A stretch of 64,000 nt of DNA from Siderastrea radians (taxonomy: Eukaryota > Cnidaria > Anthozoa > Scleractinia > Rhizangiidae). Where the stretch lies: contig OZ024897.1 in NCBI GenBank assembly GCA_964017195.1, positions 11,069,451 through 11,133,450 of the forward strand. Reading direction: 5' to 3'. Positions 1,171-53,027 of the stretch are shown piece after piece. Below the pieces are notes generated by a model. It had not been told where the DNA came from and did no database searches. It saw only the letters and a program-made list of their open reading frames with translations. A program made the position numbers and the translations under genes. How positions within the stretch are numbered: position 1 is the first letter of the stretch; each line of letters opens with the position of its first letter.

Positions 1171-1234
1171 GAAGAGTCGGGTTGTTTGGGAATGCAGCCC
1201 AAAACGGGTTGGTAAACTCCATCTAAAGCTAAAT
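1171..1234 (+). rRNA. 28S rRNA fragment, 5' piece
   Basis: The stretch contains the conserved 28S run GTCGGGTTGTTTGGGAATGC, then GCAGCCCAAAACGGGTTGG and TAAACTCCATCTAAAGCTAA. It stops at an inserted inverted-repeat element and resumes at 2658. Single-base differences from the conserved form (for example AAAGCT for AAGGCT) suggest a dispersed, non-functional rDNA copy. Confidence 0.8.
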
Positions 1235-2657: not shown

Positions 2658-2667
2658 AATACTGGCG

Positions 2668-2702
<35 letters not shown>

Positions 2703-2917
2703 ATGAAAAGAACTTTGAAAAGAGAGTTAAAAAGTACGTGAAACCGTTGGAAGGGAAATGAATGGACTCAACAATGTGCCGTTTGAGATTCAGCCGGCCG
2801 GCGGGATTGGCTCGGGGTTTGCGGATCTGAATGGACCGCGGCCACGGGTTCGTTTCTCCTGGCCGTCGCACTTCTCTTGGGTGCGAGTCAATGTCGGTTG
2901 GGACTGGGTCTGTCATA
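2658..2917 (+). rRNA. 28S rRNA fragment, 3' piece (D1/D2 region)
   Basis: It begins AATACTGGCGTGAGACCGAT, continues AGCGAACAAGTACCGTGAGG and GAAAGATGAAAAGAACTTTG, and ends in GC-rich D2-like sequence near GGGACTGGGTCTGTC. The expected continuation of the 5' piece (CTAAATACTGGC) is restored by removing 1235-2657. No other rRNA sequence is nearby, so this is an isolated fragment. Confidence 0.85.
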
Positions 2918-3382
2918 AGGGTACTTTCAGTACTTAGAGGTGTGGCTAGTGTCTATGTACAATGAAACCGCAAATTATATAACGAAACCCTATGTAATGA
3001 ACACCCGGATACAACGAATGCTACTCTTCATCCCAGCAATAATAAAATGCTTGAAAAAGAACCCTGATATCTTGATATAATGAACCTCATTATAACAAAC
3101 GCATTTTGCCAGTCCCTTGGCATATCAGGGTTCCATTGTAACACTCTCCATTTGCCATAAGAACCCCTAGAAGAGTTTTAAAAAGGGCTATGTCATTAAT
3201 TTAAAAAAAATGTTTAAAGACATGTCTGCATTAGTGAAATCTTACAACATCATCTTTTGAGTTTTCCTTTTTGTTGTAAATTATATACAAGTTTGCAAAT
3301 AAACCTTTCTATTGTAGTGTTCTGTTTTCTACCTGAACTAACTTTAAAAAAAAACTTTTGGTGTACTGAGATGGGAACTTTA

Positions 3383-3878
3383 TGCGCCGATCAATTCGAA
3401 ACTTCAACATCCCCCCCCGGGCATACCCCGGGCATTTGACTGTGCATCGTGCCCGGGGAGGGGGGAATTTGAACGTTGCGTTGGAAGGGTGGGGAATTTG
3501 AACCGGATTTATCTCTTGTTCTGACGTAATAGGCCTGTGATTTTTTTCGGTTTTTGCAGGGTCTGACGGATTTACAAGATAGAATTTCGCCTTTGTTAGT
3601 GAATAACTCTTTGAAAAGGGTCTTTAATAGAAGATTGAAGGTGTCATTACGGCATATCTTTCTCTGAAAGGCATGTAAAGTGCTTGATTGAAGACCAAAT
3701 TTGTCTTAGAGGAGAGGCAGTTCAGCACTGATTGGTGGGGCATTTCAACGGCTTTCTTGCCCCAAGGGGAGGGAATTTGAACAAGCCAATCTTCAAAAGT
3801 TCAAAAGTTCAAATGCCCGGGGGGTTGCCCGGGGGGTTGCCCAGGGGGGGATGTTGAACTTTCGAATTGATCGGCGCA
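3383..3878. mobile_element. Foldback MITE, TTA target duplication
   Basis: The left end TGCGCCGATCAATTCGAAAC matches the complement of the right end, and both continue into TTCAACAT and runs of C or G. TTA directly flanks each side (3380-3382, 3879-3881). A 3-bp TWA duplication is typical of PIF/Harbinger. There is no coding sequence. Confidence 0.72.
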
Positions 3879-3881
3879 TTA

Positions 3882-5680
3882 GCGGTGCAGCGGTGCAAGG
3901 AAGAGTTCAGTTCAAAACATTACCGACATTAGGTCACACTTCTAATACGAGTAAGACTTTCACATTTCAAACCAGCTACGTTTCTAAAGCTCTCTTCCTT
4001 CCCTGATTCTGACCGGTTGAGAAGAAGGCTTGGAAAACGATTATTATATATTGGTGACAGACGACAATCTCAAGCCCGCTACCGGGTATTGAAAAGATTT
4101 TAAAAATTGTTCACAATCTCATACTCGTAGTTCAATCTGAAGATCACTAATTTTTAGAGAAGGGCAATGAAACTGATGAAAACACAATCTGAGAGTTATA
4201 AAGGGCCGTCTACAATGGCGATCATTGGTGAGATTTCAGGGCGATTTAGTGTGCCGCTCCAAATGTTAATTCGCAGACAACTGTTGGGCGCCTAATAACG
4301 GCAACTCGCAAAGAAATATTACGTAAAGCTGGTTGCCAGATTGAGCGGTTCACTCGAAAAAAAAAAAGCGAATTGAAAACCTGGTTGCACACCAGCAAGT
4401 TTTCTTTGTCGATTCTCCTTGAAAAGTTTATTTGGTCATGTATATTATGTGAATGAGCCATCCTTACTTGTGAAAAAGATTAACAAGCTTCCTTGACAAG
4501 TTTTTCTTTGTGACCGGCCTTTGAACACACCCAGAGCAACTTTTCTTCATACATTTTTAAGACAAAACTGGCACGTCAAACTTGACAAAACTGGCACGTC
4601 AATTATAACTGGGCAAGAGAACGTGTTAACGAACACCTCCCCAAATGTTGCCGTACACGCGAGAAAATAAGCCTCTTTAAAACATAACTTGTCCAGAAAA
4701 ATGCAATGTTTGCTTACACTGCTAGCAAGTTGACTGTTGTTCAAAAAATGTTTGGCAAATCTTCTAAGGCGACTTTTCACTAAAAAAACTTGTCTTTTTT
4801 GTCGTATACACGAGCAAATCATCCTCAGACTACTTATTCTGTTTTGCTCTTTAGAATCGTCTTATCCAATCGTTTACTTCTATATTTGTTGCTAATTGAT
4901 CGCCAAATACAAGAAAATTAAGGAAGGAAAATTTCCAAATTTTTTTTGGCGAGATACCGTTCCTTCAACAAACTGGCTACAGTGTGTGCAACAGGGATGC
5001 AGTGCACTTTTTTCGGTTTTTCTCTATCATTCTACTTCTGAAGTCAGTTTGCGCCCCAAATTGCGTGCAGTAATTTCTGCGTAGGACATGTGGTAAAAAT
5101 TTAGAAACTGCAAGTTGTGCGCAATGCTGCACATGTGTTAGGCGGTCATTTTCTTCAAGAGGCGCAAGATAACTGTTCCTCTTTGCTCCCGGGTTCTCGC
5201 TCCAAACTTTCTTACAGTGTCGTAGAAGGTATTTAATTTCAATTACAAGTGAAAGTCTATGCTTGCGCACAAGTAATACTGTGACGCAGTAACAATAATA
5301 CTGTCTTAAGACAAATTTTCAAAACAAGCCTTCATGTCTCAGCTAAAATAAAGTACAGGAGCAATCTTATCTTTACAAAGAACACGCTGGCCATTCAAAA
5401 ACACACCCAAACAACTAACTTACGGTGGAATGAGAGGATGTTGTTGTTGTTGTAACTACAGTCCTTTTAGTAAGTTGTTGCGTTATAACTCTGCGTTTTC
5501 AAGAAAGTTCAACCTGCTAGAGTATGTTCCTTTGAGAAAACATATCTTTCAATAGAGCTATCGTAAAACTACTGCAAAAGTTAATCCTAGGTCACTACAG
5601 GTGTATTATTACGCAACTGAAACGCAAAATATCACATAAAAGTTGGCTAGGCGTGGCATGGTTTTTCTGAAGAAAAAAAA
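3882..5680. other. Non-coding stretch with no recognised feature
   Basis: I see no exon with family similarity, no RNA gene and no clear terminal repeats in this AT-rich region. An (AAC)n microsatellite begins just after it, at 5690. Confidence 0.45.
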
Positions 5681-5820
5681 ACTACAACGATAACAACAAC
5701 AACAACAACAACAACAAAAAACAAACAAGACAGGTAAATGACGTCAAAAAGTATTAATGAAGAAACATTCATCTTCCAGTTGTCGTCCGTGGCTCACAAA
5801 AAAAACCTCTGTGGTTAGTT

Positions 5821-5950
5821 GGAGGCAGCGTGGCCGAATTGTTAGAGCGCTGGAGTGGTTAGGGCTCTGGAGGTGCTGGGTTCAAGTCCCGTTCTGAGCA
5901 CTGGCTGGAGTTGTTCTCGGTAGACCCGAGTTCAACTCCTCGGCTACACT
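5821..5950 (+). repeat. tRNA-derived SINE head, copy 1
   Basis: The run GGCAGCGTGGCCGAATTGTT AGAGCGC resembles a class II tRNA (Leu/Ser) A box, and GGTTCAAGTCCC is a B box about 45 bases later. The stems do not close well enough for a functional tRNA. A second copy is at 61313-61446 in the duplicated segment. Confidence 0.6.
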
Positions 5951-6371
5951 TGTAACTTAACTATATGATGTTCATATAAAGTCGGTGAAGTATGATTGTC
6001 CGGGTGACTGTAGTCCTGAGAAGGACTGTTTGTGATGACACTGACTGACGTTTCGACAACCTGAGTGGAAGTGATCATCAGAGTCAAGTGAACTGTGAAT
6101 CGTCAGTAGATGTTCTGGTCTTTGTCCTGATTGGTCGACGATCTCGTGATGTTATTGGTCGTCTGTCAGTTAAACTGTGATGTTTTTGGCTGTGAAGACT
6201 GTAAAGCGTGATTGGTGCGTTTTGATCCGTCCTTTGTTAGTCACTTGTGCCGTTGGCCAGTCTATTGTTAGTAAAATTAGTTGGTTTGACTATTGTTTTA
6301 CTGTCTTGTCGTTGTTGTCAATAAGTCGTTTCTAAGGTGCAGGTATAGTTGTTGGCAACGGTTCAGTTGTA

Positions 6372-6790
6372 ATTATAATGATAATAATAATGTTTAATAC
6401 TTCTATAGCGCTTTTTACATTCACATATGATCAAAAGCGCTTTACAAACTTCAAAAATCCTCTCTAATAATAAATTACATGATTTAAACGAAATTATCTA
6501 AAAACTAAAAGACTTACTAAACTATTTACATTATATTTCATAGTACAGTTAAAGAAAATTGGAATATGCCATTCTGAATAAATGCGTTTTAGCATTGTCT
6601 TGAAAGTAATTATATTAGTCTGGTCTCTTATCCCTTTTGGCAGTGCATTCCAGGTTTTGGGGGCAGATGCCCTGAACGATCTATCACCTAACGTGACTTT
6701 GTACCGACAAGTCGGATCTTCAAGGATCAGTCCATTGGACGCTGACCGTAGAGAATGTCTATTGTTTCCCTTGATTGTGTCTGATGAGTA
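6372..6790 (-). mobile_element. 5'-truncated CR1/L2-type LINE, 3' end
   Basis: The minus strand encodes HSLRSASNGLILEDPTCRYK and then GDRSFRASAPKTWNALPKGI, the typical extreme C-terminus of CR1/L2/jockey-type reverse transcriptase. The 3' end is an (ATA/ATG)n-like tail at 6376-6393. The equivalent position in the duplicate block (about 61845-61870) lacks it, so it inserted into copy 1 after duplication or its absence in copy 2 is a deletion. Confidence 0.7.
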
Positions 6791-7114
6791 AGTTAGTAAA
6801 CCTTGGCTCTTAATTTGATTTTTTGGGTGAGCACTTTTAACTAAAGAAACAGAAACGGCGTTAAGAGAAACATAAACCTTGGTTGACATCTAATCCCAGA
6901 ATTAGCGTTGATCGCCTCTCGACCGAACAACCTGCTGGTCGTGGAGTAACTGTTAGTACATGCACGCATTGTTAGCCATGTAAAGTAGAAAAAGTTGAAA
7001 GTGTCTGCACTCTATAGCTGTAACCTACAGCTGTCTCAGTGTTGATTTACGAATTTTCAAAAAAGCGCAAATCAACAATAGCAACAACAAGCGTTCATTT
7101 ATATTTACTTATTA

Positions 7115-9135
7115 CTCTTTTTACACACGGTTAAAACTTAATCAGGTAATCTCACGACTAACAATATTAATCTAAACATTAAAATACCACCTAAACCTGC
7201 ATTCTAAGAATGCCGTGTCTCTAACTTATAAGTAATCCCTTAAATTGATTAAGTGTTTTTGCCTTCCTTAGATTACAGGGTAGGCTGTTCCAGAGTCAGT
7301 GTTTGTTCGTGGAAGAGAGACAACTAGTTTATTTACAGAGTCCCTTAAAGAATAGCGCTTTCCATTACGTTTAAGAAATTTCGATGATAAGCATTCAGAA
7401 ACAAGACCATTCAAGACCGGTATACATTTTTTAGAGATAAAGGTGTTTCGATACAGTTTTTTGGGGATCACACCTAACTTTTTGAATCGGCTCTTAGACA
7501 GTCTTCTCCTTGTCAAATCAACGTGAAATTTGCGATGCTTGTAGTTTTTGGATTGAACTTTAGCATGGTTTACATTTTGTAAAAATCGATATTTCCATGA
7601 CAACGATAAACAAAAATCTTCGAAAACAGTAAAATTGAAATTTTGCACGATCCAGATTTCGCTTCGAAAAGCAAATACCAGCAACTTAAACTGTGGTGTA
7701 TGGCAAACAAAAATACAAGAACAAAAAATTCTGTATGTTTGTTTTGAAGTAAATCGCAAAAACATTTTCAACCTTTGTTTTTGCCTAATAATAGTAAATG
7801 CACCGAAAAATAATCAACGCTTTCACGAAATGGCTAGTAAATACGTTAAAAATGTGTCTTTTACTTACTATTTTACGCCTAGAAAAATTTGTTGAAACTG
7901 GTGTTCGCGATCTCGAGAACGACTTGTTTTTCTAAGATCATTCGCGTAATAATTTTGTGGTAATTTTTTAATTTGAGCGCTTTTGCGAAAATGTTAAGAA
8001 CGGCTCTATAGATTTTTTTAAAACATTAGACATGCGTGCTTGACGATGTGACCAGTTTCAGTTTTGAGTCTTATTAACATTGATTCACTGGAACACTTTT
8101 AGATTTAACGTTAAAGAGGGCGTATGAACCGACGGAGAAGGTTGCGTTACAAATTCACAGTTGGCAAGTAGATGCTAATATGTTGAAAGTAATGCGTTAT
8201 TCATTGCTTCGTGATTTTTATCTGGTTTCTTTGTTCTTTGTTGCACCGTAGATTACAACGAAAAGTAAGAATCATGAAGGAATGCATTGCGCATTACTTT
8301 GAATATATTAGCATTTACTTGCCAACTGTTTATATGTAACGCAAGCCTTCGGTCGGTTCACACATCCTCTTTAACGTTAAATCTAAAAGTGTTCCAGTGA
8401 ATCAATGTAACGCAAGCCTTTCCGTCGGTTCATACACCCTCTTTAACGTTAAATCTAAAAGTGTTCCAGTAAATCAATGTTAATAAGACTCAAAACTAAA
8501 ATTGGTCACATCGTCAAGCACGCATGTTTAATGTTTTAAAAAATCTATCGAGCCGTTCTTAACATTTTCGTAAAAGCGCTCAAATTAAAAAATTACCACA
8601 AAATTATTACGCGAATGATCTTAGAAAAACAAGTCGTTCTCGAGATCGCGAACACCAGTTTCAACAAATTTTTCTGGGCGTAAAATAGTAAGTAAAAGTC
8701 ACATTTAACGTATTTACTAGCCATTTCATCAAAGCGTTGATTATTTTTCGGTGCATTTACTATTATTAGGCAAAAACTAAGGTTGAAAATGTTTTAAAAA
8801 ATTTGCGATTTACTTCAAAACAAACATACAGAATTTTTTGTTCTTGTATACTTTGTTTGCCATACACCACAGTTTAAGATGCTGGTATTTGCTTTTCGAA
8901 GCGAAATCTGGATCGTGCAAAATTTCAATTTTAATGTTTTCGAGGATTTTTGTTTATCGTTGTCATGGAAATATCGATTTTTACAAAATGTAAACCACGC
9001 TAAAGTTCAATCCAAAATCAACAACTACTGCAAATTTCACGTTGATCTGACAAGGAGAAGACTGTCTAAGAGCCGATTCAAAAAGCTAGGTATGGTCCCC
9101 AAAAAACTGTATCGAAACACCTTAAAGTGCAAGAC
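7115..9135. repeat. About 2-kb foldback insert with arms of about 700 bp
   Basis: Sequence 7440-8160 is the diverged reverse complement of about 8400-9130, with a short middle that includes a further tandem copy of the arm tip (8335-8400 and 8400-8465). Both arms translate similarly (KYRFLQNVNHAKVQSK, RRRLSKSRFKKLG), but this coding match only reflects the inverted repeat. The insert is absent from the duplicate block at 61.2-63.7 kb. I do not recognise the short open frames. Confidence 0.6.
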
Positions 9136-10134
9136 CTGTAAACTACGATCTAAACGCGGGAAAAACTTACAACGTCTTTCTTTTTCAAGGAAAAACAAAC
9201 AAACAAACAATCTGACATCAAACTAGCACAAAAATTGAACTAACTATGCACACTGGACCAGACACTCAGTGTACGACTGCATATACCACTGAGTGACACG
9301 ACTAGTCCTTTTATAGCGACACTGGCTCATGTAAAGATTGGAACGGTTCAGATATATAGCTTTCCCTAAAAATGCTAGGTACCCCAGTTTGAGTAGCCAT
9401 TTTGGGGTAGGCCATAGGCGTCTATTGTCCTGTAACGAAAATGAACGGTGTGGATTAAACTACACCTCTTTTCCGTTTTTCAATTGTATCTCACTGTCTA
9501 AACACTAACGTATAGTTCCCATACCTAAACCCATTTCAGTTATCTATTTGTTTACACATGCATATTTGTCACCAGGGGCAAGTCTCGTAAAAAATGTCGA
9601 GTAAACGGCCTTTCTTATCATGAGGACTGGTGCTATTGTTATAGATGACCCGTTCCAAGAAATCTCGTGTAAATAGCATCTGCATACTTAACGAACTGAA
9701 TCTACTCCCGATCCGAGCAGTTACGTTTGTGTCAATTATGACCTTTGACTAATAGCATCATTTAAGTCTGCTTAGCTAAGGTGATTGTTATACGATAAAT
9801 ATCGATTCAGCCACGGTGTGTACTGACGTTCTAGGCGGATAATATCCTATTCAACCCATCGTGATCTCTGACTAGAATTTCTTTCAGGGACTTTTTCACG
9901 TATTAAACGAAACACAATATGCCTTGCTTATTCCCCTCTCTACGAAGAAACTGTTTCAAATTCTTTTTCTAAAATTCTTTTCTACGAAGTAACTGTTTCA
10001 AGATCTACTGTAAAATTCTAGCAGCAACACAACGACTAAAGTTCAGTTGCACTGACAATCCCAAAAGTTAGTTGTTTTTAGCTTCTCCCATGGCCTTCAG
10101 ACCAACATGAGCATACACTGAGACTTTTGGGTCG

Positions 10135-22842: not shown

Positions 22843-24163
22843 CTATGCAATAAAACAACTAAGAGAGATAAATCCAGCAAGCAGACTAACGGGAAACAAA
22901 CCCATCCGCGACGATTTGCTCTTCAACTTGCATTCCTGTGTTTTTATGATCACTGGTATGCCTGTGGAAGGCTGGTATGACTCACATTTCTCCCCCTTGA
23001 TGCATCCAGCGATCTCCTCGGCTCTCTCGAGTCCACTGAAGTACGCTCCCTGAAGATAGCCATACCAGTCTGCATGGGTTGCCTCACCAGCAAAAAACAA
23101 ATTCTTCAGGCGACCGGCCATGTTAGCCCAAACTGTCGAATCTGTTCCGACCACCGGGTCTGCCCACGATCCCTGTGTGTATGGGTTCCGCGACCATTTG
23201 CTCACCACAATTTCTGTGAAGGATAGAGGAAAAAGTTATTAAAATCCGTCCGTCCGTCCGTCAGTCAGTCAGTCAGTTAGTCAGACAGTAAGACAGTCAA
23301 TGAACATTTATGCCTTACCAAGACACAGTTCACCGTAATTACGTGTTATCAAACGATTACCTGTGGCATTGGTTATGTTGGATCCATACATGTTTCTCAG
23401 AACTTGCATCACTTGTTCCATCGTTTTGGAATCATCCTGCCATTCTACCTTTAGTGCTTGATCTCCTGTTACTCCTGCAAATAGAGCAGTTGATCCAGGA
23501 AAAAACCCAGCTCGATCAAGGTCGAAAAAGGCTGGATAGTTCTGGGTTGGGGTTGGTACTGAAACGTGTAAGATCCATTCATTGTCATCCCAGAAATCGC
23601 TCGGAAACTTAAGGAAAATCTTTGTAAAGTGGATTGGTCTCAGACGATAAATGGCTTCTTTCTTCCAATCTGGCAAGGGTGGGTCAAACTGCACCGAACC
23701 ACTGTACAGCACCCCAGCGCTGAAAGTGCACAGGGCGTAGTCTGCGGTGAACGTTTCTCCCCCAGCTGTGGTGACTTCAACACCGTCCTTATCGTACTTG
23801 ATCTTCGTCACCGTTTTGTTGATTAGTATCTTGTCTTCAAAGCTTGAATAGAAGTCACTAAAAAGAGTCCAGATGCCTCTTTGGTCTGTAATAAACAGGT
23901 CTTCCCCTGGGCCCCCCATGTTGTTCAACGATGTTAAGTATTCGCTCTCTCCATACTCAAAATCGATGTCATACCAAGAGAGAACCTTTTTCAGAGGGGT
24001 GTCGGACCTCCAGCCGAGAATGTCTAGTCCAGTGGATACAGGCATATCTCTGGGTGGGATGTCCTCTTCACCTCTTTCCTCCCCCATCTCAAACAGCTTT
24101 TCAGCGGTCTTCTTCCATTCTTTAAAGACTTTCATGTCTGTTATGTCCACTCCGGCATCGTTT
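22843..24163 (-). CDS. Flavin polyamine oxidase, exons 2 and 3 (catalytic and C-terminal parts)
   Basis: These exons (23361-24163 and 22843-23213) continue the N-terminal exon at 52509-52849; the joined frame is 1515 nt, giving 504 aa, close to the roughly 500 aa of plant-type secreted polyamine oxidases. Exon 2 enters with phase 2 (AG|A) and leaves with phase 1. The substrate-domain signature LGWRSDTPLKKVLSWYDIDF resembles the family's GGWRPKTPLE region. Exon 3 carries the second FAD-binding stretch NLFFAGEATHADWYGYLQGA (about 419-438) with the GEATH core. The protein ends in a hydrophobic tail of about 20 residues (about 485-504) after a basic KLKSKSSR stretch, which looks like a membrane or GPI-anchor signal. 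It should oxidise spermine, spermidine or acetylated polyamines outside the cell or in the secretory route; specificity cannot be read from sequence. Confidence 0.88.
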
Positions 24164-24867
24164 CTAAGAAGAATAAGAAAACAGTAAGTAAGGTTGACTG
24201 CGCGCCTTAATGCAGAAGGATATCTTTTTACGCACATGGCCGCCTCCTTCTTCTTCACCTTTGGATTTTTTGGTGACTGCTCAACAGTTTCTGCTTTCCT
24301 GTGGCCTCCCAAACTTGGCAGAGTTTTTCCTGATCTGAGAAGTTTACCAGACATGCAGCGACAAGTCAGGCTGTTCAGTTGAGATACGAAAGATTTCGCT
24401 CGTCACGGAGCTGAACTTGACACTTCCTCACTACACGATGCCCAGCCACGTGTCACGTGTTAATAATAACAACAGTTAACATTACTTAGAACACTACTAT
24501 CACTCTACTTACGACACTACTTACACCCACACTCTAGCTTCATTTACTACTTACTTTCTTTACATTTTTCATTTATCAAAAAAAGAGAGAGAAAACACAC
24601 AGACCACTAAGAAATTCAGGCAGAGTTTTTGGATCTGGGATTGTCATATTAATCCCTAGCATTTTTTTTAATACATCAAAACTAATTAATATATAAATTT
24701 AGCCAAGCCTAAAAGCGGAGCCCCCCTTTTTGTTTTGTCTGTTTTTTTTTTGTTTTTGTTTTTTGTTTTGTTTTGTTTTTGCTGGCAGTTATTAATTTGT
24801 GCAAATACTCTCATTCAAGTCGTTAAATTAAAGAAAAACAAAAAAACAAAGAAAAAAAAGAAAAAAA

Positions 24868-28978: not shown

Positions 28979-29802
28979 ATGACAAGACAGGCTGAAGTGC
29001 TCGAAGATGACTGCAACACGTTAGACGAAGACCAAGCAGAACCAAGCCTTCTTGAAATTAAAGAGATGTTAATCGACATACAAATTTCTATTGCTTCAGT
29101 CATTGCCGATAATCAAGCGATCAGAAAAGAAATTGACGATCTCCGCCAAAAGCTTGATGACCTTTAACGGAGAAGAGTTAAAGGATTTAAAAGCGTCTCT
29201 CAAGAAGACGAAAGATGAGAATGAAGCCTTAAAGATCTCCTTAGCGGCGTTGAATACCCGGCTTACAGCAACAGAGAAGGAGCTGCAGAATCAAAGCACA
29301 GAATGCGAGCAATTGTGGGAAAACCTCGACCATTTAGAGCAGTATTCGCGTAAAAATTCTCTTGAAATTCATGGCGTTCCGCAAGACGCGAACACATCCA
29401 CAGAACATGTAGTGATTAAAGTGGCTGAAGCCCTTAACATTACCGTGGAACCCGAGGAGATTGAAATATCACATAAAATCAATCAAGGCAGAAGCATCTT
29501 AGTAAAGTTCTGCAGCCACAAGACGAAAGCAAAAATTTACAAAGAACGCACAAAGCTGAGACATGTTAAAATCGCGGATTTATTCCCGGGCTATCCTTCT
29601 ACAGCCCGACATCGTATATTTGTTAACGAAAACTTAACGGCTTTCAGGCGATCCTTGATCAGTAGAAGCCGCAAACAAGAGAAGAAAGGAGGGATCATTT
29701 TAGAGTGTCTGGTCCTTGGACGGAAAGGTATATGTCAAAAGCACCCCAGAAGGATCTCCTGTAAGAATTCTTACAGAAGAAGACTTAAATGATATATAAA
29801 CG
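28979..29802 (+). pseudogene. LINE ORF1 (coiled coil plus RRM-like), frameshifted
   Basis: The protein runs from MTRQAEVLEDD through a coiled coil (LLEIKEMLIDIQISIA, then TRLTATEKELQNQS) to LEQYSRKNSLEIHGVP, the RRM signature of L1-type ORF1 proteins, and on to KVYVKSTPEGSPVRIL and DLNDI. Frame changes near 29155 and 29705 are needed. ORF1 normally binds the element's RNA as a trimer. Confidence 0.72.
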
Positions 29803-30129
29803 GTATTTATATATAAACATTTATTGCTGACACTGGAGTTAATTCTTCGCCGGATGTAGCGCGGCAGTTCAGGCTCGGTAACTGCCTTTCGCACCTGAAA
29901 AAAGTAGGTAAATGTTCGCTCTATGTGTGCTTAGTTTAGCTGTTCTTCTATTTGTTTATACTTTGTTTAATTCTTGTTTGCTCCAGCTCGTTACTGGCCC
30001 AATTATGCAAAGCCCACCACTTTGTCTTTCGACCAAAAGACACCTGTCGAAGTCCCTTGCCATTGCAATTACGCGTAAAATATCCTTTGTTTCACATCAG
30101 GAACATCATGAACTCGCACTTCAACTTTA

Positions 30130-33100
30130 ATTTTAAATTCCAACTTTAAACGTGAAGGGGCTGAATAAATCAATCAAAAGGCGCTCGATCTTCAGATGGT
30201 TACACAATCGAAACTATCACTTCACGTTCCTGCAAGAAACTTACAGTTCCATAGAACATGCTCGCATCTGGGAAGCCGAATGGGGTGGAAAAGTATTTTT
30301 TAGTCATGGTACATCACATAGTAAAGGTGTCATGACGCTAATTAATCCAATACTAGACTTCAAAGTGGAAATTGCGCCTTGACAGACAAGGACAAAAAAG
30401 GTGGAAACTCAGTTTCGAGGAAAGCCCTTGTAATCAAAGAAATCGAGCATCTTGCCAGTCTTTACAACTTAACAGACATTTGTCGTGACTGTAACCCCCA
30501 TGGGGAAGGTTTCACTTGGAGAAATAAATCTGCCAAAATTCAATGCCGCTTAGACTTCTTTCTTATTTCCAAAATACTCGTCAATGAAGTATTTACATGT
30601 GAAATTTTGAACGCTCCCGAAACTGACCACTCTGTTATCACGTTATACCTTAAATCCGAAAAAGCAAGGCAGCCCAGAGGTCCTGGCTTCTGGAAATTCA
30701 ATAACTCCTTACTTGAAGAACATGAATACTCCAACAGACTCCGAGAAAACATAAACCTTTTCAAAAACAAGTACGCTGATGTTGAAGATTTAAGCTTGAA
30801 GTGGGACCTACTTAAAATGGACTGAGATTCGTGGTTTTACAATCAAATATTCTAAAATCAAGGCCAAAAAAAGAAAAACCGAAGAGGTTATACTCCAGCA
30901 TAAAGCTAACAAGCTACTGCAAAAATCCGCAAAGAATTCCAGCGATAAACAACTCTTAAACGAGCTTTACGAGACAAAATCGCGCTTAGAAACAATAATG
31001 CGACAAAAGACAAAAGGAGTTATTATTAAAGGCAAAGCTCGGTGGCGTGAACAAGGCGAACGCAATACTAGATACTTTTTTAATCTAGAAAAGCGTAATC
31101 AAAGCAGGAAAGCGGTTACAAAATTAAAAGTTGGCAACGATAAATACACTTTCGACCAGTTTGAGATATTAGAGGAGGAAAAACGCTTTTATGAAACACT
31201 ATACAGGTCAGAAAACATTGACGAGCAGAGTCTGTCTGGATCCACTTTTTTCAAATCCGAGAATATATCCCCGTTAAAAGAAGAAGAAATCCAGATGTGC
31301 GAAGGTCTCGTCTCAGAAAACGAATGTTTAAACGCTCTGAAAGAATTCAAAAACGCTAAATCCCCTGGTTCCGATGGTTTCTCTGCGGAGTTTTATAGAT
31401 TTTTTTGGCCTGAGCTAGGTCCTGAAATGGTTGCCAGTTTTAATTATGGCTTTCGGACTGGAACTCTTTCTATTAGTCAAAGACGTGGAATCATTTCGTT
31501 AATTCCTAAAAAGAACAAAGATAAAACTTTGCTTGAAAATTTAAGGCCAGTCTCTCTGCTTAATATAGACTACAAAATCCTGACTAAAACTATCGCAAAA
31601 AGGCTAGAAAAAGTGCTCCCAAAAATCATAAACTCCGATCAAACCGGTTACGTCAAAGGCCGCTTCATAGGTGAAAATGTTAGACTAATACAAGATGTCA
31701 TGTTTTTCACTGAATACACGAAAACACCCGGGATTGCTATATTCCTCGATTTTAGAAAAGCATTCGACACAATAGAATGGCCTTATCTCAAGGTTGCCTT
31801 ACAAATGTTTAATTTCGGCCCTGATATTCTAAATTGGTTTCAAATAATTTACAACCAAGTATCCAGCTGCGTCTTGCACAACGGCCATGCATCTGAATTC
31901 TTTCTTCTAGAGCGAGGAGTCAGGCAAGATTGTCCCTTGTCGGGCCTCCTTTTTGTTATCGGAATCGAACTTTTCGCTAGGGCGGTAAAAAACGACCCGA
32001 ATATCAAAGGTATTAATGTAGGCCAAAAGGAAATAAAAATCACACAATATGCGGATGACACCACGGTCCTGGTACGTGACGGCGACTCAGTGCCAAGATT
32101 ATTAAAACTTTTAGAAGAATTCAAAAAAGTCAGAGGCCTACAAATTAACACCAGCAAAACAGAAGCCATGTGGTTAGGTACATGGAAAAGCCGCAAGGAG
32201 AAACCCTTCGGTTTCAAGTGGCCACATGATCCTGTTCTCGCTCTTGGAGTGCACTTTTCTTATGATTCTGAACGTGCCAAGAAGCTTAATTTGGAAGATA
32301 AGATAGCCATATTGGAAAAAACTCTCAATAACTGGAAGCGAAGAAAACTCACTCTTATTGGAAAAATACACATTGTGAAAACATTAGGCTTGTCCAAACT
32401 TATTTACAGCGCTTCTGTATTGGCAATGTCGAAACATACTGTAGAGAGAATTAACAAAATCATTTTTAACTTCCTCTGGGATGGCAAACCTGCCAAAATA
32501 AAGAAAAAACTATTATTGCCGAAAAAAAGCATGGCGGACTAAAAATGATTGACTTTGAAATTATGGAACGGTCACTCAAATTAGCTTGGATTAAAAGAAT
32601 TGCAGAAAACAACCTCGCTGCGTGGAAAATAATTCCAGAACAGGCATTGAGCCAATACGGTGGTTTCGCGTTTTTCTCTCAATGCCAGTAAGATATTAAT
32701 TTTTGTGACCTTCAAAATTTACCGGAATTTTACCGAACCATTCTGAGTTACTGGCAAAATTTTAAGCTCTTAACTGGTGTTGAAAAAGCAGCACAGAACC
32801 AAATAATTTGGAACAATCGCAACATTCTCGGAGACGGAAAACCAATTATGTATAAAGCGTGGCTCAAAAAAGGAATAATTCATATCAAGGATCTAATCAA
32901 CGAAGACTTAAAGTTTCTTTCTCTAACCGATCTTAAAGCAAAATTCAACTTAGAAGTACCTTTCACTGTCTATTATGGCCTAGTAAATGCTATCCCAGCA
33001 AGTTGGAAAGAAAACATCCAAAATACGGATGTTGCCCCATCAGAAGTCGTACCGTCTCTCCTACTTCCCTCTACCAAAATAGCTTACTCGACCATACTTG

Positions 33101-33657
33101 GCAAAAGCTACTCTGTACCAACAGCTGAGAGTAAGATTTTAAATTATGGCTTCACTACAGACAACATCCAAAAGGTCTATATGCTTCCATTTCAAATTTT
33201 GAAGGAGCCAAAGTCAATAATTTTCCAGTTTAAAATCATTCACAACATCCTACCCACGCAATCTAGCTTGTTCCGTGCGGGTATAAAAGACAGTGACATA
33301 TGCCCCTCATGTAATTCTGAAAGCCAATCTTTAAGTCACATGTTGATTACATGTGATACTTCCTCGTCGATTTGGAACCACTTCAAACACTGGTGGCAAA
33401 AAAGCTTTCAGGAACAAACAAATTTACCCGAAAGCGTGATTCTGTATGGCTGGCACAAAAAATCAAACACCTGGCTAGTGTTCAACTACACGCTCATTAT
33501 TGCAAAATACCACATTTTCACCACAAGTGTAGGCAATGGGAACCTGGATTTTGAAGGTTTTCTCTCACGCCTGAAAAGCGAGCTTACTATTCTGCGAACA
33601 ATAGCATCTACAAATAACAATCTGGAGCAATTTACAGAAACTTGGACCGCTGTGTGA
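30130..33657 (+). pseudogene. LINE ORF2 (endonuclease plus reverse transcriptase), broken
   Basis: It starts LNVKGLNKSIKRRSIFRWL with HFTFLQETY of the AP-type endonuclease, but most of the endonuclease core is deleted near 30380. LDFFLISK and TDHSVITL mark its end. The reverse transcriptase is nearly intact at 30998-32542, with RRGIISLIPKKNKDKTLLEN, LRPVSLLNIDYKI, SDQTGYVKGRFIGEN, AIFLDFRKAFDTIEW and the catalytic QYADDTT. Frame breaks occur near 30825 and 32540, and an in-frame TAA near 32689. The C-terminus has CPSCNSESQSLSHMLITC, the CCHC knuckle of L1/Tx1 elements. It is not translatable as one protein. Confidence 0.85.
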
Positions 33658-44765: not shown

Positions 44766-45962
44766 GGTATGTAGCCAGTTTAAAAGTGCTAATAAATAAA
44801 AATTCAGCTGATAGATTTGCTGTTTAGACTACCACTGATTTACTTCACCCCAGTAGACAAATATTTTTAATTTGCCTTAGTGATATGTTTTTGGATCAAA
44901 ATCAAACTAATTTACAAGAACACAGCATTTTTTTATAAATCTAACTAAATAACTGTAAACTGAAATCGTAGTTTGTTGCAGGAAGTATCTTTGCTTAACA
45001 TTTGAAGTGTCGTAAAACCAGAACTTTCTTCGATGTTGCTAGATACTGTCATTATGAGAGAAAACAAAAAATAACTTTTGAAAGATATCATTCCTCGAAT
45101 ACTTTGCGAAATCAAGAATTAGAAATTAGAAACAAAAGTTAAGCAATTACGAAGATTGCTAGCTTTAATGCTTAGTCTAAGTAATACGAAATAAATCAGG
45201 ACACGTACCATAACATCAACTTGTTTCAATTCGAGATACGATATACTTATTCGCAGTGGTTAATGAAGCTAAAGGGCAGCCCTCTTGCAAACATTACATC
45301 ATTAAATTTAAGCTTACAACCTACATCGTGTTTAAATATAGGTTTCTTATCTAAATATTTATGTTTACAATCATGATTCTTACCTCGGGCTTAAATGCAT
45401 TCAAGTCCCGTCGAGGCGTCGCGACACAGAGAACCGATATTTTAAACTCCACGCACTGAAGTCTGAGGAAATCTTTGATTCCTAAGATCGACAACATGTC
45501 AAAACCAGGATATCCATCGCAAAAATCACAAAAGCTGCGATATTTTGAACGGAAAGAAGTAATTTTGGCGTTCACAAGAGATCCTCAGGCGATGGCCGCC
45601 ATGAGCAAATGATGCTAAACCGAAACAAATACCAGCGTGCATTGCGGTCGTAGCACGCACACCACCTGACATAATAGCATCTTACAGGCAATCAATTAAA
45701 GAGTCTGACCCACCCAAGAGCCTTTGCGCGCTTACATCAGTTCAGACGCCATTTTCGGGGCACCCAAAACTCCGGATTTCATCGTTAGAGAAAGTAATCC
45801 TTCTCCATCGAGCGGTCACTGCACAAAGCAGCCTCTATTTTCACATAAATATTTTCGTCGTTTATTGTTCTTTCTGTACTGGGTATTATTTGTGGACAAT
45901 CGCTACTTTCCGAACGGTAATCGAGTGGGATTCTGTGCCTGTTCAGAAGTTCCTCCGTCGCA

Positions 45963-48900
45963 ATGGCGGCGAATCGTCCCAAGATGGGACGTCCACGGAG
46001 GCGAGAAGGCATCAAACGACTCAAATTGCGAGAGTCAACGTTTAATCCGTGGAACGAGCGAAAGGAGGCTCTTGGGCTTCGAAGAATTACAAACAGCGAG
46101 TTCGCCGAAATGCTTCTCCATCAGCATTTCAGTGCCCTTCAAGAAGTACGCGTTCGACTCACCCGGGATCTCACCATGGTCGTGGATCACCACATTCTAC
46201 ACCTTCTACTCCGAGGCGAGGTAAGAAAATGTTTCTAACATGTTATCAGTAAATTGGCTTCTTTGTTGTGCTATCCAGCCAATGTTCTAGCTGGCAATAA
46301 ACGATCTTGTATCTAACTTCTGTGAGTGACAAATGTTGAGTAGTCTGTGTGACAATGTTTTGAATTTATTCACAGAGAGAAAGGAATTGTTCCTGCAGTC
46401 AGCGCCTGTTGGAATAAGACGCGGACCTGAGGATTTATCAGTGTCCCCGTTACCCTTTGCCAGTGCTTCAGACAACACATCTGTTAGCAAGTGAGTTCTT
46501 GTTTCTATCTGAGAAAGCAGTGAGAGTACTTTGAAGTCAGTGTGTATGTTTGGCAATATTTATTATTTGTCACTTTCAATGAGAAATCTTGTGACATTTT
46601 TCGGAACTTCGAAAAGTGCGGCATTTACTGATATAGTCTATTTCTGGTGTATTTAGCATTGAAGGTGATGTAACTGCTAGTTCCACGATACACTCTGAAG
46701 CCCGGAGAAGAGCTCGCCACATGTCACCAGACTCTTCTCGAGCAGGTCCAAAGTTGGAATCCCTACTTCTCCACTTTGGAAGGAAACCCTCACTCAGAAG
46801 TTGTGAGCGATGAGGAGTAAGAGAGTTTTACCTTTCCATCTATCTACCTATTATGCTTTATTGTGTTGTTTGATTGTTATTGGTTGGATTTACAGGAATT
46901 TTTGTATATAATTTTCCTCATGTCACACACCTGGCAGTTGAACTAACCCATAGGTGGAGGGGGTAATGCTTTCAAAGTAACTTTGAATTTGTTTGACTGA
47001 CCCATCAGTTACACATGGTGGTGACTTGCTTGTGTTTCTTGTGAGAACAGCAGAGGTTTTTATTTGTTCTTTGTTGTGTCATCCTTGTATTGTGAATAAT
47101 ATTTTAGTATAGTTCAATGTGCGATGCTTACAGTGGCCCTTATCAAAAGTGAGGATACCAAATGTCTCTCATATTTCCATTAGAGTTCAAATATATGTAT
47201 TTTTCTCTACATTCAAATTGAAATATTGTTTTGTTTTGTATCTGCATGCCAACGGCTAAATTCATGGGTAAGATAATAAAGTCCATGCAGGATATGCTGA
47301 GACAAAGCCGGGGACCATAAACATGAAAAAAAGAATGAGACCAATATCTGGCCTTCTTAACCAAACGAGCTTTATCAATGGAGGTTTTATAACATGGTTT
47401 ACTGCGATTCACTGGGCAGACAGACAAAAGGCAATCCTGAGCAGGCAAGTTATTGACTCTGGCTTGCCTGTGTGAGTAGCCAATCATGGCACAGGATTTG
47501 CTTCATCATGCACACGAGGGGAACCAGCCATATTTGTAATTACTGCTTGACTGTTTTGTATATTGCTTCTTTCAATTTAGAACCTAATTGTTTTGCAGGC
47601 TGGGAAGATCAAGGGCTGTGAAAAACTCTTGCAGTGGGTTGAACCAGTGTGAAACCATTTTTGGCAATGTGTGGAAACTTGTGATGGAGATCTTGAATTG
47701 TTGAAGGTATGTGACTTTCACTTTGGGTCAGGTTGCTCGAATTAACATTTTGTGGCAAGTTAGAGTATTCAATTTTATGTTGTGGCATCTTATAAAATAA
47801 GTATTATGTCCTCCTTTTAAGGACAAGTGGTTAGGGATAATGCACCATGTCTGTGGGGAGCATGAGTGGGATGGAGCTACTTGTTCCCATGGACCACTGA
47901 CTGAAGTGGAAGGTGGTAAGGAGTACTTAGCCATGAACTCCAAGGCTGCAAAAGAGTTGCGGAAGATCGTGTTGGACCATGAATGGCTAAAGAGTCTGGA
48001 ACACTATGTGTTTTTCAGGTACATTTCGGGAGAACAGTTTTTTGATGACACTTGCATCAGACCTTTTAGATGACTTAATCCGTACCCATCACTGAATAGA
48101 TCTGAATGGATGTACATGTACCTTTTTATTAGAGTGGCTTATAGTATTCCCTGTTGTATGGCATGGTCTGTGAGCACTCAAAGTAAAGCCAATCCTGCTA
48201 TGTCATTGGCAACCTGTGTAGGCAATATGCTTGGTTGTATGTTACGTAATAGTAACTTTTTATATGGGTCGTCATCGCCTACTGGTGGTTTTTTACAAAG
48301 CAAGCCTTGTCTGAAGTAAATCAGTAGTAATAAGTTAAAAATTAAAAACTATACCTGTCAGTACAGCTGGATCTTGACTTTGTTTTGGTCCTAATTTTGT
48401 AATAAAATAATTTGGCCAATATTCCACCACCTTTATCTCATGCTTGACCAATAACCCATATAATTATAATGTATCTATTTAAAAAATGACTCAAGTAATG
48501 GCTCAGTCTTGAATTTTTGTTATATTTATCTAAACTAGGCATACAAGCAACTTAGAAAACTTCAACTCGATGCGTCTGAAGTATGCTCTGAAATGGATTG
48601 CATTTGGGTAAGTTCATGTTCATGCAAATAGAAGGAAATCTGTTGGGAAAAAATTACAAACTAGGATGATAGTTTGTTGGGAGACAGGTTATGTTGCCCA
48701 CACCATTTTCCTTGTTCGTCTGCTTCAAAGTATACAATAACTTCAACTGAATGTTAATGTTTCAGGTATGAGGTCTTTACTGGGCAGATTTTGTTAGCAG
48801 CCCTGGACCACAACTTCCATGTTTTCCGCAAGACCCTGGAAGGGCAGTTTAAAAAGATCTATTCCAAACGTTCAGGAAACTGGAGGGTGGAACCTGTGAA

Positions 48901-49054
48901 GGAACCCAAGCAGTATCCTCATTTGGCTTTGCTCCAGGCAGACATCTTGCGACGTCGTGCAGAAGATAAAGATGCCATTACCAGGCACATTGAGGTCTCC
49001 CCATCCAATCCACCTTGCACCAACAATAGCTATGAAAAGGGCCCCTTCAACTGA
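45963..49054 (+). pseudogene. Decayed transposase-like gene of the TTAA element
   Basis: Exons that fit by phase are 45963-46220, 46376-46490, 46657-46816, 47599-47706, 47822-48018, 48539-48607 and 48766-49054. The start MAANRPKMGRPRRREGIK is a basic helix-like region, then comes a Ser-rich linker. Later exons give GKIKGCEKLLQWVEPV-stop-NHFWQCVETCDGD, a Cys/His exon (HHVCGEHEWDGATCSH), and the tail HTSNLENF...LKYA...LLAALDHNF. From memory, this tail pattern belongs to a large uncharacterised mobile-element protein family in fish and cnidarians. Lesions: an in-frame TGA at 47650-47652 where the family has Trp, frame changes within exon 1 (about 46110-46150) and exon 3 (about 46750), and no recognisable central catalytic part between 46817 and 47598. 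The exon phases otherwise agree, so the gene was once intact. Confidence 0.65.
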
Positions 49055-50830
49055 AGAGTTGGTCAAAGCTAAATTGTCATGCTTTCAGACTCAAGAGAAA
49101 CCAGAATAGGTGTTAACAGACTATTTAGTGACAGGGTTCCCACAGTCAGGGAAAAGTAAAGGAATAGCAGTTATCTTTCAAGGTCAGGGAAACCTCAGGG
49201 TATTTTCTATCACGTCAGAGAAATTCTACATTCTCTTATTTTGTGAAACTTTATTTTCAGTTAACCAGATATATATTTCTAGATATGGGAAGGCCTATAG
49301 TTGTAGAAAGTGTCTAGTAGTGATTTGGTTTTTATGATTTCATACCATAGAAGCCATCATAATGGTCATCCTTTGTTGTCAGGGAGAAGTCTGTGAAAAG
49401 ACAGGAATTGATTTTGTCCTGATGGGTAGTAACCTGGGTAACTAAACTAAGAATGTTTGTTTTACTGGTTGATCACTGTTTGATCTTTTCAACATGAGAA
49501 AAATTCGAATTTTGTTAAAATGCTTTGTCTGTAAATATTAACATAATTGTCTATCAAAATTCCCAATTTTTTTATTTGGAAATACTTTAGTGAAATAAAA
49601 AGAAATAAATATATCAGAAATTTCATTCTCAGGAGACAGGACTGAGAAAGAATTGAAGTCTTTATAATTATGATATATATGCACAACATTATGATTCATC
49701 AAGTGTACCAAATCGACAACCATCATATCATGGAACAAAGGTAAATAAATGTTGTCACTTGTAATAATTATTTTCAGCATTAAAATGGATGAGAAACAGA
49801 GATTTTTTGACCTTTTCTTGTGTGAATGGGAGTATTCTGTTACTGTGCAAATCCAGGAGCCACGAACACTAGAATTATTTCTGGAATATTCTTATGTTGT
49901 GAAGTAAAAGCCAATCAGCTGCTAGATAAAAAACCACAACCTGTAGCAATAATTAGGTTTGTGGCTTGCAATTTTTTCTTGTGGTTTGATCTCCCATCTG
50001 ATTGGTCATGTGTTCATGGTTGTTGGATTCGCAAAGTAAAACTTAATTTTTCACCCCCACTTCATTACCCAATATCAAATCAAAGTGTTCATGGTTTTTG
50101 GTTTTGCACTTCATCAGCCAGTACTACAAAATACAGGCTATAGCCCCCATATCATACTTATAAGGCTATTGACTCATCAGTTATGTTCCCTGCAATAAAT
50201 AAGCATACCACAGACCTCCCTGAAATGTTTATTGTGAAAACATTTTCCACTTGCCAACAAAACAACCTTTTCAAAGTAGTGCATGCCCCGGACCTATAAG
50301 CTGCACTTTACAGTATGATGATAGCCCCAAATATTTACAAATGAGTTTACCGGTAGTCAAGAAAAAACTTGTAGGTTGAAAAAGTGCTTTGCTTTAACAC
50401 TAACTTCTCTCCAACTGTTTCCAGACTTATCTAGTTGACATGTTACATTGGGTGGGTGGGGGGGGGGGGGGGAGAGAAGGGAGGGCATTTTTAGGTTTTC
50501 TTTTTTCAATAAAAACTGGTAATGACAAATAGGCCTTCAATCCCCATTTCCAATGGAATGGAAACACCAATGAGAATGTTTCCTTACTTGTCACAGCCTC
50601 CAAGCAAACTCTCTTGGACGGGTTGGGGGAAGAGAGCTTGCTGGCAGGCTATAGTGACCATTCACATACTTCTTATTAGCCCTATGCATCATAATACATT
50701 GATATTTCAAAGCGAATTCACTGTCACTGATGGGCCTTAAAAGAGCAACATGACAGAATCTTTTTAGAATCTTGGGAAAATACTAATTTTGTGAGGAAAT
50801 AAGCGCAAAATGCACTTTGTTTCAATGCAC
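49055..50830. other. Intergenic core of the TTAA transposon
   Basis: This stretch separates the 3' ends of the two convergent transposon genes. It is AT-rich with a G-run at 50452-50474. I see no coding region, RNA gene or inner inverted repeat in it. Confidence 0.5.
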
Positions 50831-51989
50831 CTATGAACGGCGAAGGCCCATGTAATTGCCATCTGGAGCTGGAGAAGCTTGCCTAATGGTTGTAACTACA
50901 CAAGACGGCAAAATTTTTCGATTCCGCCTTCCAAGTTTTCCATATTTCCACAACGTGTACTGCCGGTATGCGGCCTTCCGGTAACTTTGAGTGGAGTAAT
51001 CAGGCTCATCTACACGGATGTCACACCTGGCTCTTATTGCCAACTGCAAAACTTCCCGATCTAAACAGGTGGTGTTGAACATTACATAGGAAGTAACACA
51101 GGTTCTTTTCTGGTAGCAAACAGTTTCCTGCTCATCCTGCATCCTTCGGCACACTCCACAATGTCATTTTCCGGTTCTGGCGGCTCTGACTCTGGATCAT
51201 TTGCTCCTGTTAGTAGATCTCTGGCGTATTCTACACTGCCACGGCCTTGGCTCAGTACCCTGATGAGAAGGGTTTCCTTTTCAACCTCTGATAGCTTCTT
51301 CACAAACTCCTATCGTATAAGACAGGAACAGAGAGACTTCAGCTACAAACAATTTGTAAGCAAGTGCCAATTTTTCTCGCTTGCGTGCGATAATTTGTAC
51401 TAAACTAATGCTTACCTTTATTTCATTCTCGGACTCTTCTACAGCTCTTCGGTGGCGTGCATATGCGCTCGGGTTATTGAACACAGGCTGGACTTCAACG
51501 GCCCCATTTTTGCAGGCAGCTTTGCTCGTTCCACACTGACAACTCGACGTGCATTTGGAGTCTGCATTCCGACACGGGCAGCCTGTCGACCTCGCACTCT
51601 TCTTTCGGCTACATGTGTTTTTGCAGCGGCAAACCTACAGTGCCAGAGCCAGTCTCGTTTGAGTTAAAAAAAAAAAACATCGGAAGAAATGCATATTCTT
51701 ATTTTGAAGCGGAGAAATGTAAAGCTGGGATGATTTCTTACCACACGAGCGACAACAGCGCTGCTTGGTCCGGCGACTGAATCACGGCGAGCCGTGGTTC
51801 GATTCGGCTCACGTTCACTGGCGATCCGTAAGCATCTACAGCAGGACGTTCTGCGTATTCGTCTCCACTTAAACTGTCGCCAGTGATATTTAGAGCTTCT
51901 TCGCTATCGCTCATTTCCAGTTGCATCCTTTCCGCCATGTCGATGAGAAGAATCTCGCGCGCTAAAGGACAAATGAAAGCTATACCCAA
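50831..51989 (-). CDS. CXC-type cysteine-rich plus P2X7 intracellular-domain protein in the TTAA element
   Basis: Three exons are visible: 51742-51989 (acidic N-terminus with MAERMQLEMSDSEE), 51416-51634 and 50831-51309. Exon 2 reads VCRCKNTCSRKKS...GCPCRN...KCTSSCQCGTSKAACKN, with twelve cysteines in paired C-x-C spacing, like the CXC (tesmin/CRC) metal-binding class. Exon 3 has a helical linker (EFVKKLSEVEKETLLIRVLS), then CGVCRRMQDEQETVCYQKRTC, TTCLDREVLQLAI, YRKAAYRQYTLWKYGKLGRR and NRKILPSCVV...PAPDGNYMGL, matching the C-terminal zinc-binding ballast domain of P2X7. No channel part is present. A one-base frame break occurs near 51165 between EPEN and HCGVC, and another frame change is needed near 51820 to reach exon 2 in phase. 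A role in DNA binding or transposition control is inference. Confidence 0.72.
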
Positions 51990-52508
51990 ATATGGGAAGA
52001 ATACAACGGTGTCCCGGATAATAACAATAACAGAAGCGCGCGTTGCAAACTGGGTGGGTCAGACTCTTTAAGCCAATTAACGCTTTCAGGTAAAATTCCT
52101 TCCTCACGGGCCGTCGTATTGTTGGTCTTGGTCAACATAAATAAAGTTTGAAGCGGTGCAAATTTGAAAGTATTTACTCAATCAGGACCGCCACTGATGT
52201 CCAATAATGTTTTAGAACTGTAAAACTTTCCATATTTCTACCACGACCGAATTTTAAACGAGTTACAATTAGCTTACGCTGTTTTAAATTAGCACGAAAG
52301 AAAGTGAACAGTGACCGCGCGATCGAAGTCCCTCTTTAGCGCTCACAAATGGTCCTGTTTGTAAAAATATAACTGCAATTTTGTGCTCAGAGGAAATGTT
52401 AGAATTCACGATATTTTATTGCTTGTGCATTTGGCCCAGATAGGAAAAATTGCCAAATTAAAGGGATGACTAAACTAATTAACTGAGTATATCCATTGTC
52501 TAATTTAC

Positions 52509-52849
52509 CTGATGCGTATATTGGTGAAGTTTGACCTCGTTACTGTCAAATTGTGCTTGTTCTTTAAAGGAATCAGTGGGTTATCTTCCTCATCTGCAAA
52601 ATGAATCCAGTTAGCTCCCAGTTCTACCTTCATCCCTGCAAACGACGCCTGCTTTATTCGTCCGCCAATGTAATCTTGTCCTTCCAACACAATAAAGTCA
52701 GTAATTTCTTGGTCGTGCAGGGTTTTCGCTGCTGTGATTCCTGCAGCACCAGCTCCTAGGATTATAACCTTTTTCCTTTCTAGGGGAGCTGTGGCTACCA
52801 CAGCAAAAGTTAAGCAGAGAAAAAGCAGTGATGCTTTCATCGCCGACAT
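52509..52849 (-). CDS. Flavin polyamine oxidase, exon 1 (signal peptide and FAD-binding fold)
   Basis: The exon begins MSAMKASLLFLCLTFAVVAT, a typical signal peptide; the second Met (residue 4) is an alternative start. It is followed by KKVIILGAGAAGITAA, the Rossmann GxGxxG motif at 32-37, the acidic residue ending strand 2 in VLEGQDYIGGRI (Glu56, with Arg64), and VELGANWIHF. It ends at 52509 with AG|GTAAAT, phase 2. The matching acceptor is at 24163, giving FTNIRIR-NDAGVDITDM across the join, where I recall family members having FTNY-x-x-YN-x-x-G-x-DVT. The intron is therefore about 28.3 kb and holds most of the mobile DNA in this window. Confidence 0.88.
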
Positions 52850-53027
52850 CTTACCGTGCTGTGTGATGCTCGGAAAAGCATAGAAAGGCGTGGCGCTTTG
52901 TTGATTTGCCTATTTGCATAACTTCAGCATTCACCCAGCCTATTCAAAATATGCAATAACAGGGGTGCGTCACGCAGTCACGCAATCGTTAAAGAATAAA
53001 GAAACGTTCCAATGCAGTTCCTACGGA

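Follow-up and report, generated by a model that had tools for sequence, protein, structure and literature searches.

The Kol0 group of Kolobok DNA transposons carries a second gene, KolX, beside the transposase (Kojima & Bao 2022, PMC9587614). According to that study, KolX has the ballast fold of P2X7, and both P2X7 and Nanor are argued to derive from it. Kolobok termini begin with 5'-RR, unlike those of piggyBac, and a few piggyBac families encode a KolX-like protein without most of the seven cysteines (PMC9587614).

Here we compare these systems with an element in a 64,000-nucleotide stretch of Siderastrea radians DNA (the window). Including a TTAA on each side, it occupies positions 45696-52071, about 6.4 kb. 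Judged from its sequence, it is almost certainly a defective Kolobok transposon of the Kol0 group, belonging to a family that spread non-autonomously. We base the Kol0 assignment on the layout, a transposase together with KolX. As described for Kol0 elements of the Kolobok-1_XT type (PMC9587614), there are a TTAA duplication, 5'-RR termini, a KolX with the ballast fold and occurrence in a cnidarian, and relatives of the element add a DDD/E transposase with DxxH and a zinc finger. The window copy differs from that description in having no catalytic exons and a frameshifted KolX. A further difference is the N-terminal cysteine cluster of KolX in the relatives found here, which is not known to have been described in PMC9587614. 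The T2-MITE of Xenopus, a non-autonomous Kolobok (PMC6004289), resembles our element in its TTAA, its AG-type termini and its presumed spread without a transposase of its own; in contrast, most of both genes is recognisable in the ~6.4-kb window element.

Ends and target sites

The element has perfect 17-bp inverted ends, AGAGTCTGACCCACCCA on the plus strand (45700..45716) and its counterpart on the minus strand (52051..52067), as the initial annotation of a TTAA transposon had stated. Each end adjoins a TTAA target site duplication (45696..45699 on the left, 52068..52071 on the right, neither assigned a strand), so that the inverted repeat is perfect over 21 bp when TTAA is counted. Both ends start with 5'-AG and thus have the 5'-RR ... 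YY-3' form of Kolobok, together with its 4-bp TTAA duplication. ISL2EU elements duplicate 2 bp of target. That identity was rejected, given the 4 bp duplicated here.

Within the window, no end match with up to 3 mismatches was found beyond these two (0.17 expected by chance). Genome-wide, the exact end (TTAA plus 15 bp) occurs 57 times (27 forward, 30 reverse, the window's two among them), which we read as at least 35 copies; the reversed pattern, searched as a control in the same genome, gave 0 matches. The initial annotation had proposed such a search, with the single-element reading to be abandoned if the ends were unique, and the 57 occurrences uphold that reading. TTAA is present on both sides of all 18 two-ended copies (L009-L026), a check that is not independent because these copies were retrieved with a pattern containing TTAA. 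At one end of L034 and of L042 it has decayed, to TAAA and TTAC respectively. Two loci, L037 and L038, have their right flank in common and resemble a single locus that was duplicated. IMG/VR yielded 0 matches to the element ends and, for KolX, 16 pattern matches with no relative among them, an expected outcome for a transposon of animals.

By analogy with the Kolobok superfamily, we infer cut-and-paste movement at TTAA. A piggyBac-type element would have the same TTAA target, and a KolX-like protein, without most of the seven cysteines, does occur in a few piggyBac families (PMC9587614). Counter to this, the AG termini are of the 5'-RR kind that separates Kolobok from piggyBac (PMC9587614), and the transposase relatives among the matches listed are of Kolobok type and carry the DxxH signature. 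We regard a piggyBac origin as having next to no probability; of the initial "Kolobok/piggyBac-like" label, we keep the first half and drop the second.

Remains of two convergent genes

On the plus strand, the gene remains match Kolobok-type transposases. The N-terminal exon (GRPRR...RLRESTFNPWNERKE; 45963..46221) is 72% identical to Montipora P0061 and aligns with residues 10-53 of the Montipora transposase P0065, a protein in which N-terminal and C-terminal exons are joined. It is followed by remnants of exon 2 (...LSVSPLPFASASDNTSVSK; 46366..46491; residues 75-116 of P0061) and exon 3 (46658..46817), the latter with an internal frame change relative to homologues that recurs in nearly all of 22 aligned copies. 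Further downstream lie an exon with an in-frame TGA at 47650-47652 (KGCE..QWVEPV*NHFW; 47599..47706), the zinc-finger region (HHVCGEHEW..CSHG; 47822..48019), the exon with the last catalytic Glu (HTSNLENFNS; 48540..48608) and the C-terminal exon (LLAALDHN...; 48767..49051). Comparison with L046, a relative in the same genome, places the exons that encode DxxH and the two catalytic Asp at 46818..47598, where no transposase similarity was found. Only P0062 overlaps 46900-47560, and it is an open reading frame that traverses this non-coding DNA in a different copy. The window copy keeps the zinc finger and E alone, having lost D, D and DxxH. We aligned 14 transposase relatives, out of 120 among the matches listed: D, D, D-x-x-H and the zinc-finger C-x-H are present in all 14, and the last E in 13, the exception (P0071) ending early.

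KolX lies on the minus strand, convergent with the transposase remains inside the same TTAA-bounded element. Exon 1 (51740..51938, ATG at 51938) shifts frame ahead of its splice site relative to homologues, and exon 2 (51416..51634) encodes the cysteine cluster C-x-C...C...C-x-C...C...C-x-C...C. Exon 3 (50834..51309) encodes the P2X7-type ballast domain (Pfam P2RX7_C, PF20478, E 8e-20), and a 16-bp deletion at about 51163 has shifted its frame and removed the WC.C motif. P2X7 structures (PDB 6u9v, 9e3m and others) match the ballast region by sequence profile (best E 2.4e-16). Both PF20478 and the P2X7 profile thus identify the second protein as a KolX with the ballast fold, although its gene is broken here. 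P0002, the KolX of Actinostola, was modelled with AlphaFold from an alignment of 36 out of 55 proteins; the mean pLDDT is 59.9 and the pTM 0.34. The P2X7 receptor is matched in its C-terminal ballast tail alone, and the element has no P2X channel part. As the initial annotation proposed, this gene belongs to the element and is not a receptor.

The initial annotation had also given the minus-strand gene a CXC-type domain. Scanning 10 rows (the window and nine homologues, of which P0005 and P0016 are without part or all of the cluster) for the cysteine region gave no Pfam match at E<=1, and six rows gave no solved structure in the PDB at E<=10. We therefore rejected the CXC (tesmin/TSO1-like) identity, and take the pattern to be a mere resemblance.

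Damage shared across the genome

The C-terminal part of the transposase P0063 is matched at 33 of 45 loci, and both catalytic Asp are absent from all 33. Specifically, the match begins at residue 469 or beyond in 32 of them, whereas both Asp precede residue 430; in L034 it begins at 456, the additional stretch being intron DNA. The ballast deletion is found in 10 of 22 aligned copies. Variable sites are distributed over the three codon positions as 42/34/31 in the transposase and 31/40/36 in KolX. In other words, neither gene has a codon-position bias, and coding variability equals non-coding. The sharing of lesions among copies, together with this absence of bias, points to a non-autonomous family. 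An assembly artefact was rejected as the cause of the lesions, as many insertions with different flanks carry them. No autonomous partner bearing the exact AGAGTCTGACCCACCCA ends was found.

Two further families were found in this genome. In L046 the two-gene layout is complete: all parts of P0063 are matched in order, D, D, DxxH, E and the zinc finger are present, and KolX is convergent. Its TTAA-flanked inverted ends are 32 bp long and differ from those of the window element. L047 preserves KolX and the right end of a third family. The families, whose bodies can otherwise be recognised mainly in their coding DNA, share conserved motifs that lie immediately internal to the ends and are specific to each side, GCCATTTTC (left) and TGTTATTGTT (right).

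Could the window hold an intact transposon with two genes, the second of them encoding an accessory factor not recognised before? TTAA ends enclosing both genes, recurrence in other copies and the gene pair in L046, there with other ends, agree with this. The missing catalytic exons, the TGA, the frameshifts and the evenness over codon positions refute it for the window copy; what survives of the two spliced convergent genes proposed initially is convergent remains, not working genes. The initial annotation had also been unable to put a published name to the layout. Because Kolobok elements with KolX and its ballast fold were already published (PMC9587614), that claim of novelty fails, and we consider the whole proposal extremely improbable.

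Alternatively, KolX may have been retained by the host or the family as a useful protein, through domestication or as a repressor, independently of transposition. In the other subfamily (B), 8 of 12 copies retain an open exon 3, and between families KolX dN is 0.29-0.37 with dS saturated. Against this, variable sites within the family are spread evenly over KolX codon positions, among singletons and shared sites alike, and we judge retention very unlikely. In view of the open exon 3 and of subfamily B dN/dS values of 0.23-0.87 (NG86; six pairwise values, L045 in every pair), some selection may have acted on KolX in the source copies of that subfamily. Saturation of NG86 dS precludes a between-family ratio for exon 3 of KolX and exon T7 of the transposase; for exon T5 the ratio is 0.21 (NG86, 64 codons).

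Proposed history and significance

The favoured reading, a defective Kol0-group family, implies an ancestor with two genes, a DDD/E transposase on one strand and a convergent KolX on the other, with a TTAA target and AG termini. This ancestral element would have lost the exons with the two catalytic Asp and DxxH. Non-autonomous spread would then have followed, presumably by mobilisation in trans, with transposase from an external source recognising the ends. The subfamily to which the window copy belongs would also have had its KolX ballast domain destroyed ahead of the spread.

KolX is a putative accessory protein. According to one conjecture, which we think improbable, the KolX of cnidarian Kol0 elements would be a zinc-cluster protein that has two cysteine-rich modules and assists the transposase in recognising the left and right subterminal motifs. 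If so, the P2X7 ballast would descend from a DNA-end-recognition module.

New here are a genome in which two more families with KolX accompany that of the window, one of them in a complete two-gene element, and a Kol0-derived family that spread after catalytic capacity was lost. Our findings independently support the published claim that 'P2X purinoceptor 7-like' annotations in corals and anemones refer, at least in part, to accessory proteins of transposons and not to receptors. Given spread after such a loss, damaged genes are to be expected behind these annotations.

Ends and dispersal of the family

The element's terminal inverted repeat, AGAGTCTGACCCACCCA, occupies 45700-45716 and, in the opposite orientation, 52051-52067. 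As the initial annotation described, these ends are perfect over 17 bp (21 bp including TTAA) and directly bordered by TTAA; no third match occurs in the window at up to three mismatches (0.17 expected). The annotation had also asked whether the ends are found only here. They are not: a search of the source genome, covering 804.8 Mb in 439 contigs (the window belongs to contig 11), returned 57 exact occurrences of TTAAAGAGTCTGACCCACC and 0 of the reversed control. Read by position, the 57 ends form 22 pairs that face each other, with 13 left unpaired, and thus represent at least 35 copies including the window's. Spacing is 6.3-6.4 kb, as in the window, for 17 of the 22 pairs and 6.7 to 14.2 kb for the remaining five.

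Flanks differ from copy to copy, with the exception of L037 and L038. These two copies, about 203 kb apart on contig 8, have their right flank and internal deletions in common and are probably one locus, duplicated after insertion. Another locus, L042, holds a miniature derivative of 913 bp (from base 201). It has the same ends, its right TTAA decayed to TTAC, and all that is left of the element is about 490 bp at one end and 436 bp at the other.

Around the window copy lie minus-strand exons of an amine oxidase: 52505-52909 encodes the N-terminal part (profile 2-66), and 23308-24402 together with 22843-23235 the C-terminal parts (profile 188-442). If these belong to one gene, the transposon sits in its introns together with a plus-strand LINE-type retroelement (29073-33657), which has a reverse transcriptase (PF00078, 30800-32542, plus) and an upstream ORF scoring as PF03258 (29073-29792, plus).

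The transposase and KolX genes

In the first protein search, the plus-strand exons matched seven transposase-like proteins. Searching more widely with four of them as queries found 328, of which 120 were listed; 14 of the 120 were aligned. All 14 carry the signature D ... D ... DxxH ... C-x-H, and the last E is present in every one except P0071, whose sequence stops early (13/14). P0065, from Montipora, unites the window's N-terminal exon and C-terminal exons in one protein. For the coral relative P0059, Pfam gives a 'Mutator-like transposase' match of 30.1 bits (cut-off 26.5). In a second predicted Montipora protein, P0061, the Kolobok N-terminal exon type is fused to a FLYWCH zinc finger.

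The minus-strand gene, KolX, matches Pfam PF20478, the intracellular (ballast) domain of P2X7, at E 8e-20, and a profile built from this domain and nine relatives recovers P2X7 chains in PDB (best E 2.4e-16). A protein search with the gene returned 55 proteins, and all rows with a stated organism are cnidarian. Eight cysteines of its cysteine cluster are invariant in six aligned rows. The CXC identity proposed for this cluster, which goes no further than a resemblance in cysteine pattern, did not hold up, as we found no Pfam family at E<=1 (10 rows) and no PDB match at E<=10 (six rows).

The initial annotation could name no such two-gene element from the literature, but the central idea, a P2X7-tail gene as part of a Kolobok, is already in print. 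According to Kojima & Bao (2022, PMC9587614), Kol0 families code for KolX alongside their transposase, the ballast fold is present in KolX, and P2X7 arose by fusion with KolX; Nanor is judged a likely domesticated KolX. Orphan ballast proteins across animals, including cnidarians, are described by Rump et al. (2020, PMC7016195), in whose main text the stem 'transpos' has 0 occurrences.

Judged by eye from the KolX and transposase match lists, the pairing is repeated in two other animals. In Oculina patagonica, KolX-like ACROYT_G034119 and transposase-like G034118 have consecutive locus tags and contigs of the same reported size; in Exaiptasia, the homologues P0003 and P0071 are both on contigs of 301,168 (same reported size). 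Actinostola KolX and transposase matches lie on contigs differing in size and give no support for pairing, nor do most other rows of the two lists, which show no shared contig. Missing pairing is weak evidence, since the lists give the longest contig per cluster only.

Lesions in the window copy and across the family

The two spliced, convergent genes of the initial annotation are both recognisable, but the copy is broken. Of 123 transposase-like proteins compared with the element region by tblastn, 97 match at E<=0.01, and among these only P0062, an ORF through the corresponding non-coding DNA of another copy, overlaps 46900-47560. P0059 aligns with the window copy only from residue 282 onward, so the copy lacks the portion of this protein that holds the two Asp and DxxH. 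The transposase exon has an in-frame TGA at 47650-47652, and KolX has lost the WC.C motif through a 16-bp deletion, which also causes a frameshift. Relative to homologues, the frame also changes in exon 1 of KolX and in exon 3 of the transposase; both changes occur in all or nearly all of 22 aligned copies, and unusual splicing at these exons is therefore possible.

The damage is common to many copies. We scanned 45 loci (37 fetched stretches and 8 short loci overlapping them) with P0063, P0065 and P0059. Any transposase match was present in 39 and a P0063 match in 33, loci with only an end or a fragment being uninformative on catalytic residues. The P0063 match begins at residue 469 or later in 32 of the 33 and at 456 in L034; in P0063, the motifs that contain the two Asp start at residues 361 and 427, and the one that contains DxxH at 455. 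An intron of L034 reads LDVLH opposite LDVWH, formally a DxxH, with neighbouring residues mismatched and both Asp absent. None of the catalytic motifs was found in an upstream extension of L019 (27% identical).

The 22 aligned copies (the window's, L009-L025, L034, L039, L040 and L045) leave out the interrupted or partial L026-L033, L035-L038 and L041-L044 and the short loci. Ten, the window's included, have the ballast deletion, of 16 columns in 8 copies and 28 in L009 and L013; it is absent from 12. The TGA is present in 8 of the 22, L019 being the one with TGA but without the deletion. The window copy and L010 are 99.8% identical.

Across these copies coding and non-coding DNA are equally variable, and variable sites fall evenly among codon positions in the transposase (42/34/31, p 0.40) and KolX (31/40/36, p 0.57). 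Splitting by single or shared sites or by subfamily gave no significant skew; the lowest p, 0.073, reflects a trend to fewer third-position changes. Counter to this, 8 of the 12 copies in the subfamily other than the window's keep KolX exon 3 open, and NG86 ratios for six pairs within that subfamily, each pair including L045, range from 0.23 to 0.87.

A complete relative and possible sources of transposase

L046, a locus in the same genome with other ends, holds a relative in which the two-gene arrangement is complete. The element (1170-9928) has TTAA and 32-bp identical inverted ends; its transposase matches run in order along it, with both Asp at 3000-3932 and DxxH at 4459-4554, and KolX is convergent at 9793-8571. 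L047 contains the KolX and right end of a third family. Five ends were read from the three families, both ends of two and the right end of the third; each starts with AG and has an inner CCMACC-like core. AG ends and TTAA are reported for Xenopus Kolobok (PMC6004289). Side-specific motifs lie further inside: GCCATTTTC at about base 50 in both left ends read (window element, L046), and TGTTATTGTT at about base 36 in all three right ends read (window element, L046, L047).

A genome search with P0063 listed at least 66 matches, among which we identified no transposase source whose ends are exactly those of the window element. Many have open frames, and thus sources of transposase exist in the genome. 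Since the copies examined lack a catalytic core, we infer that they must have been mobilised in trans.
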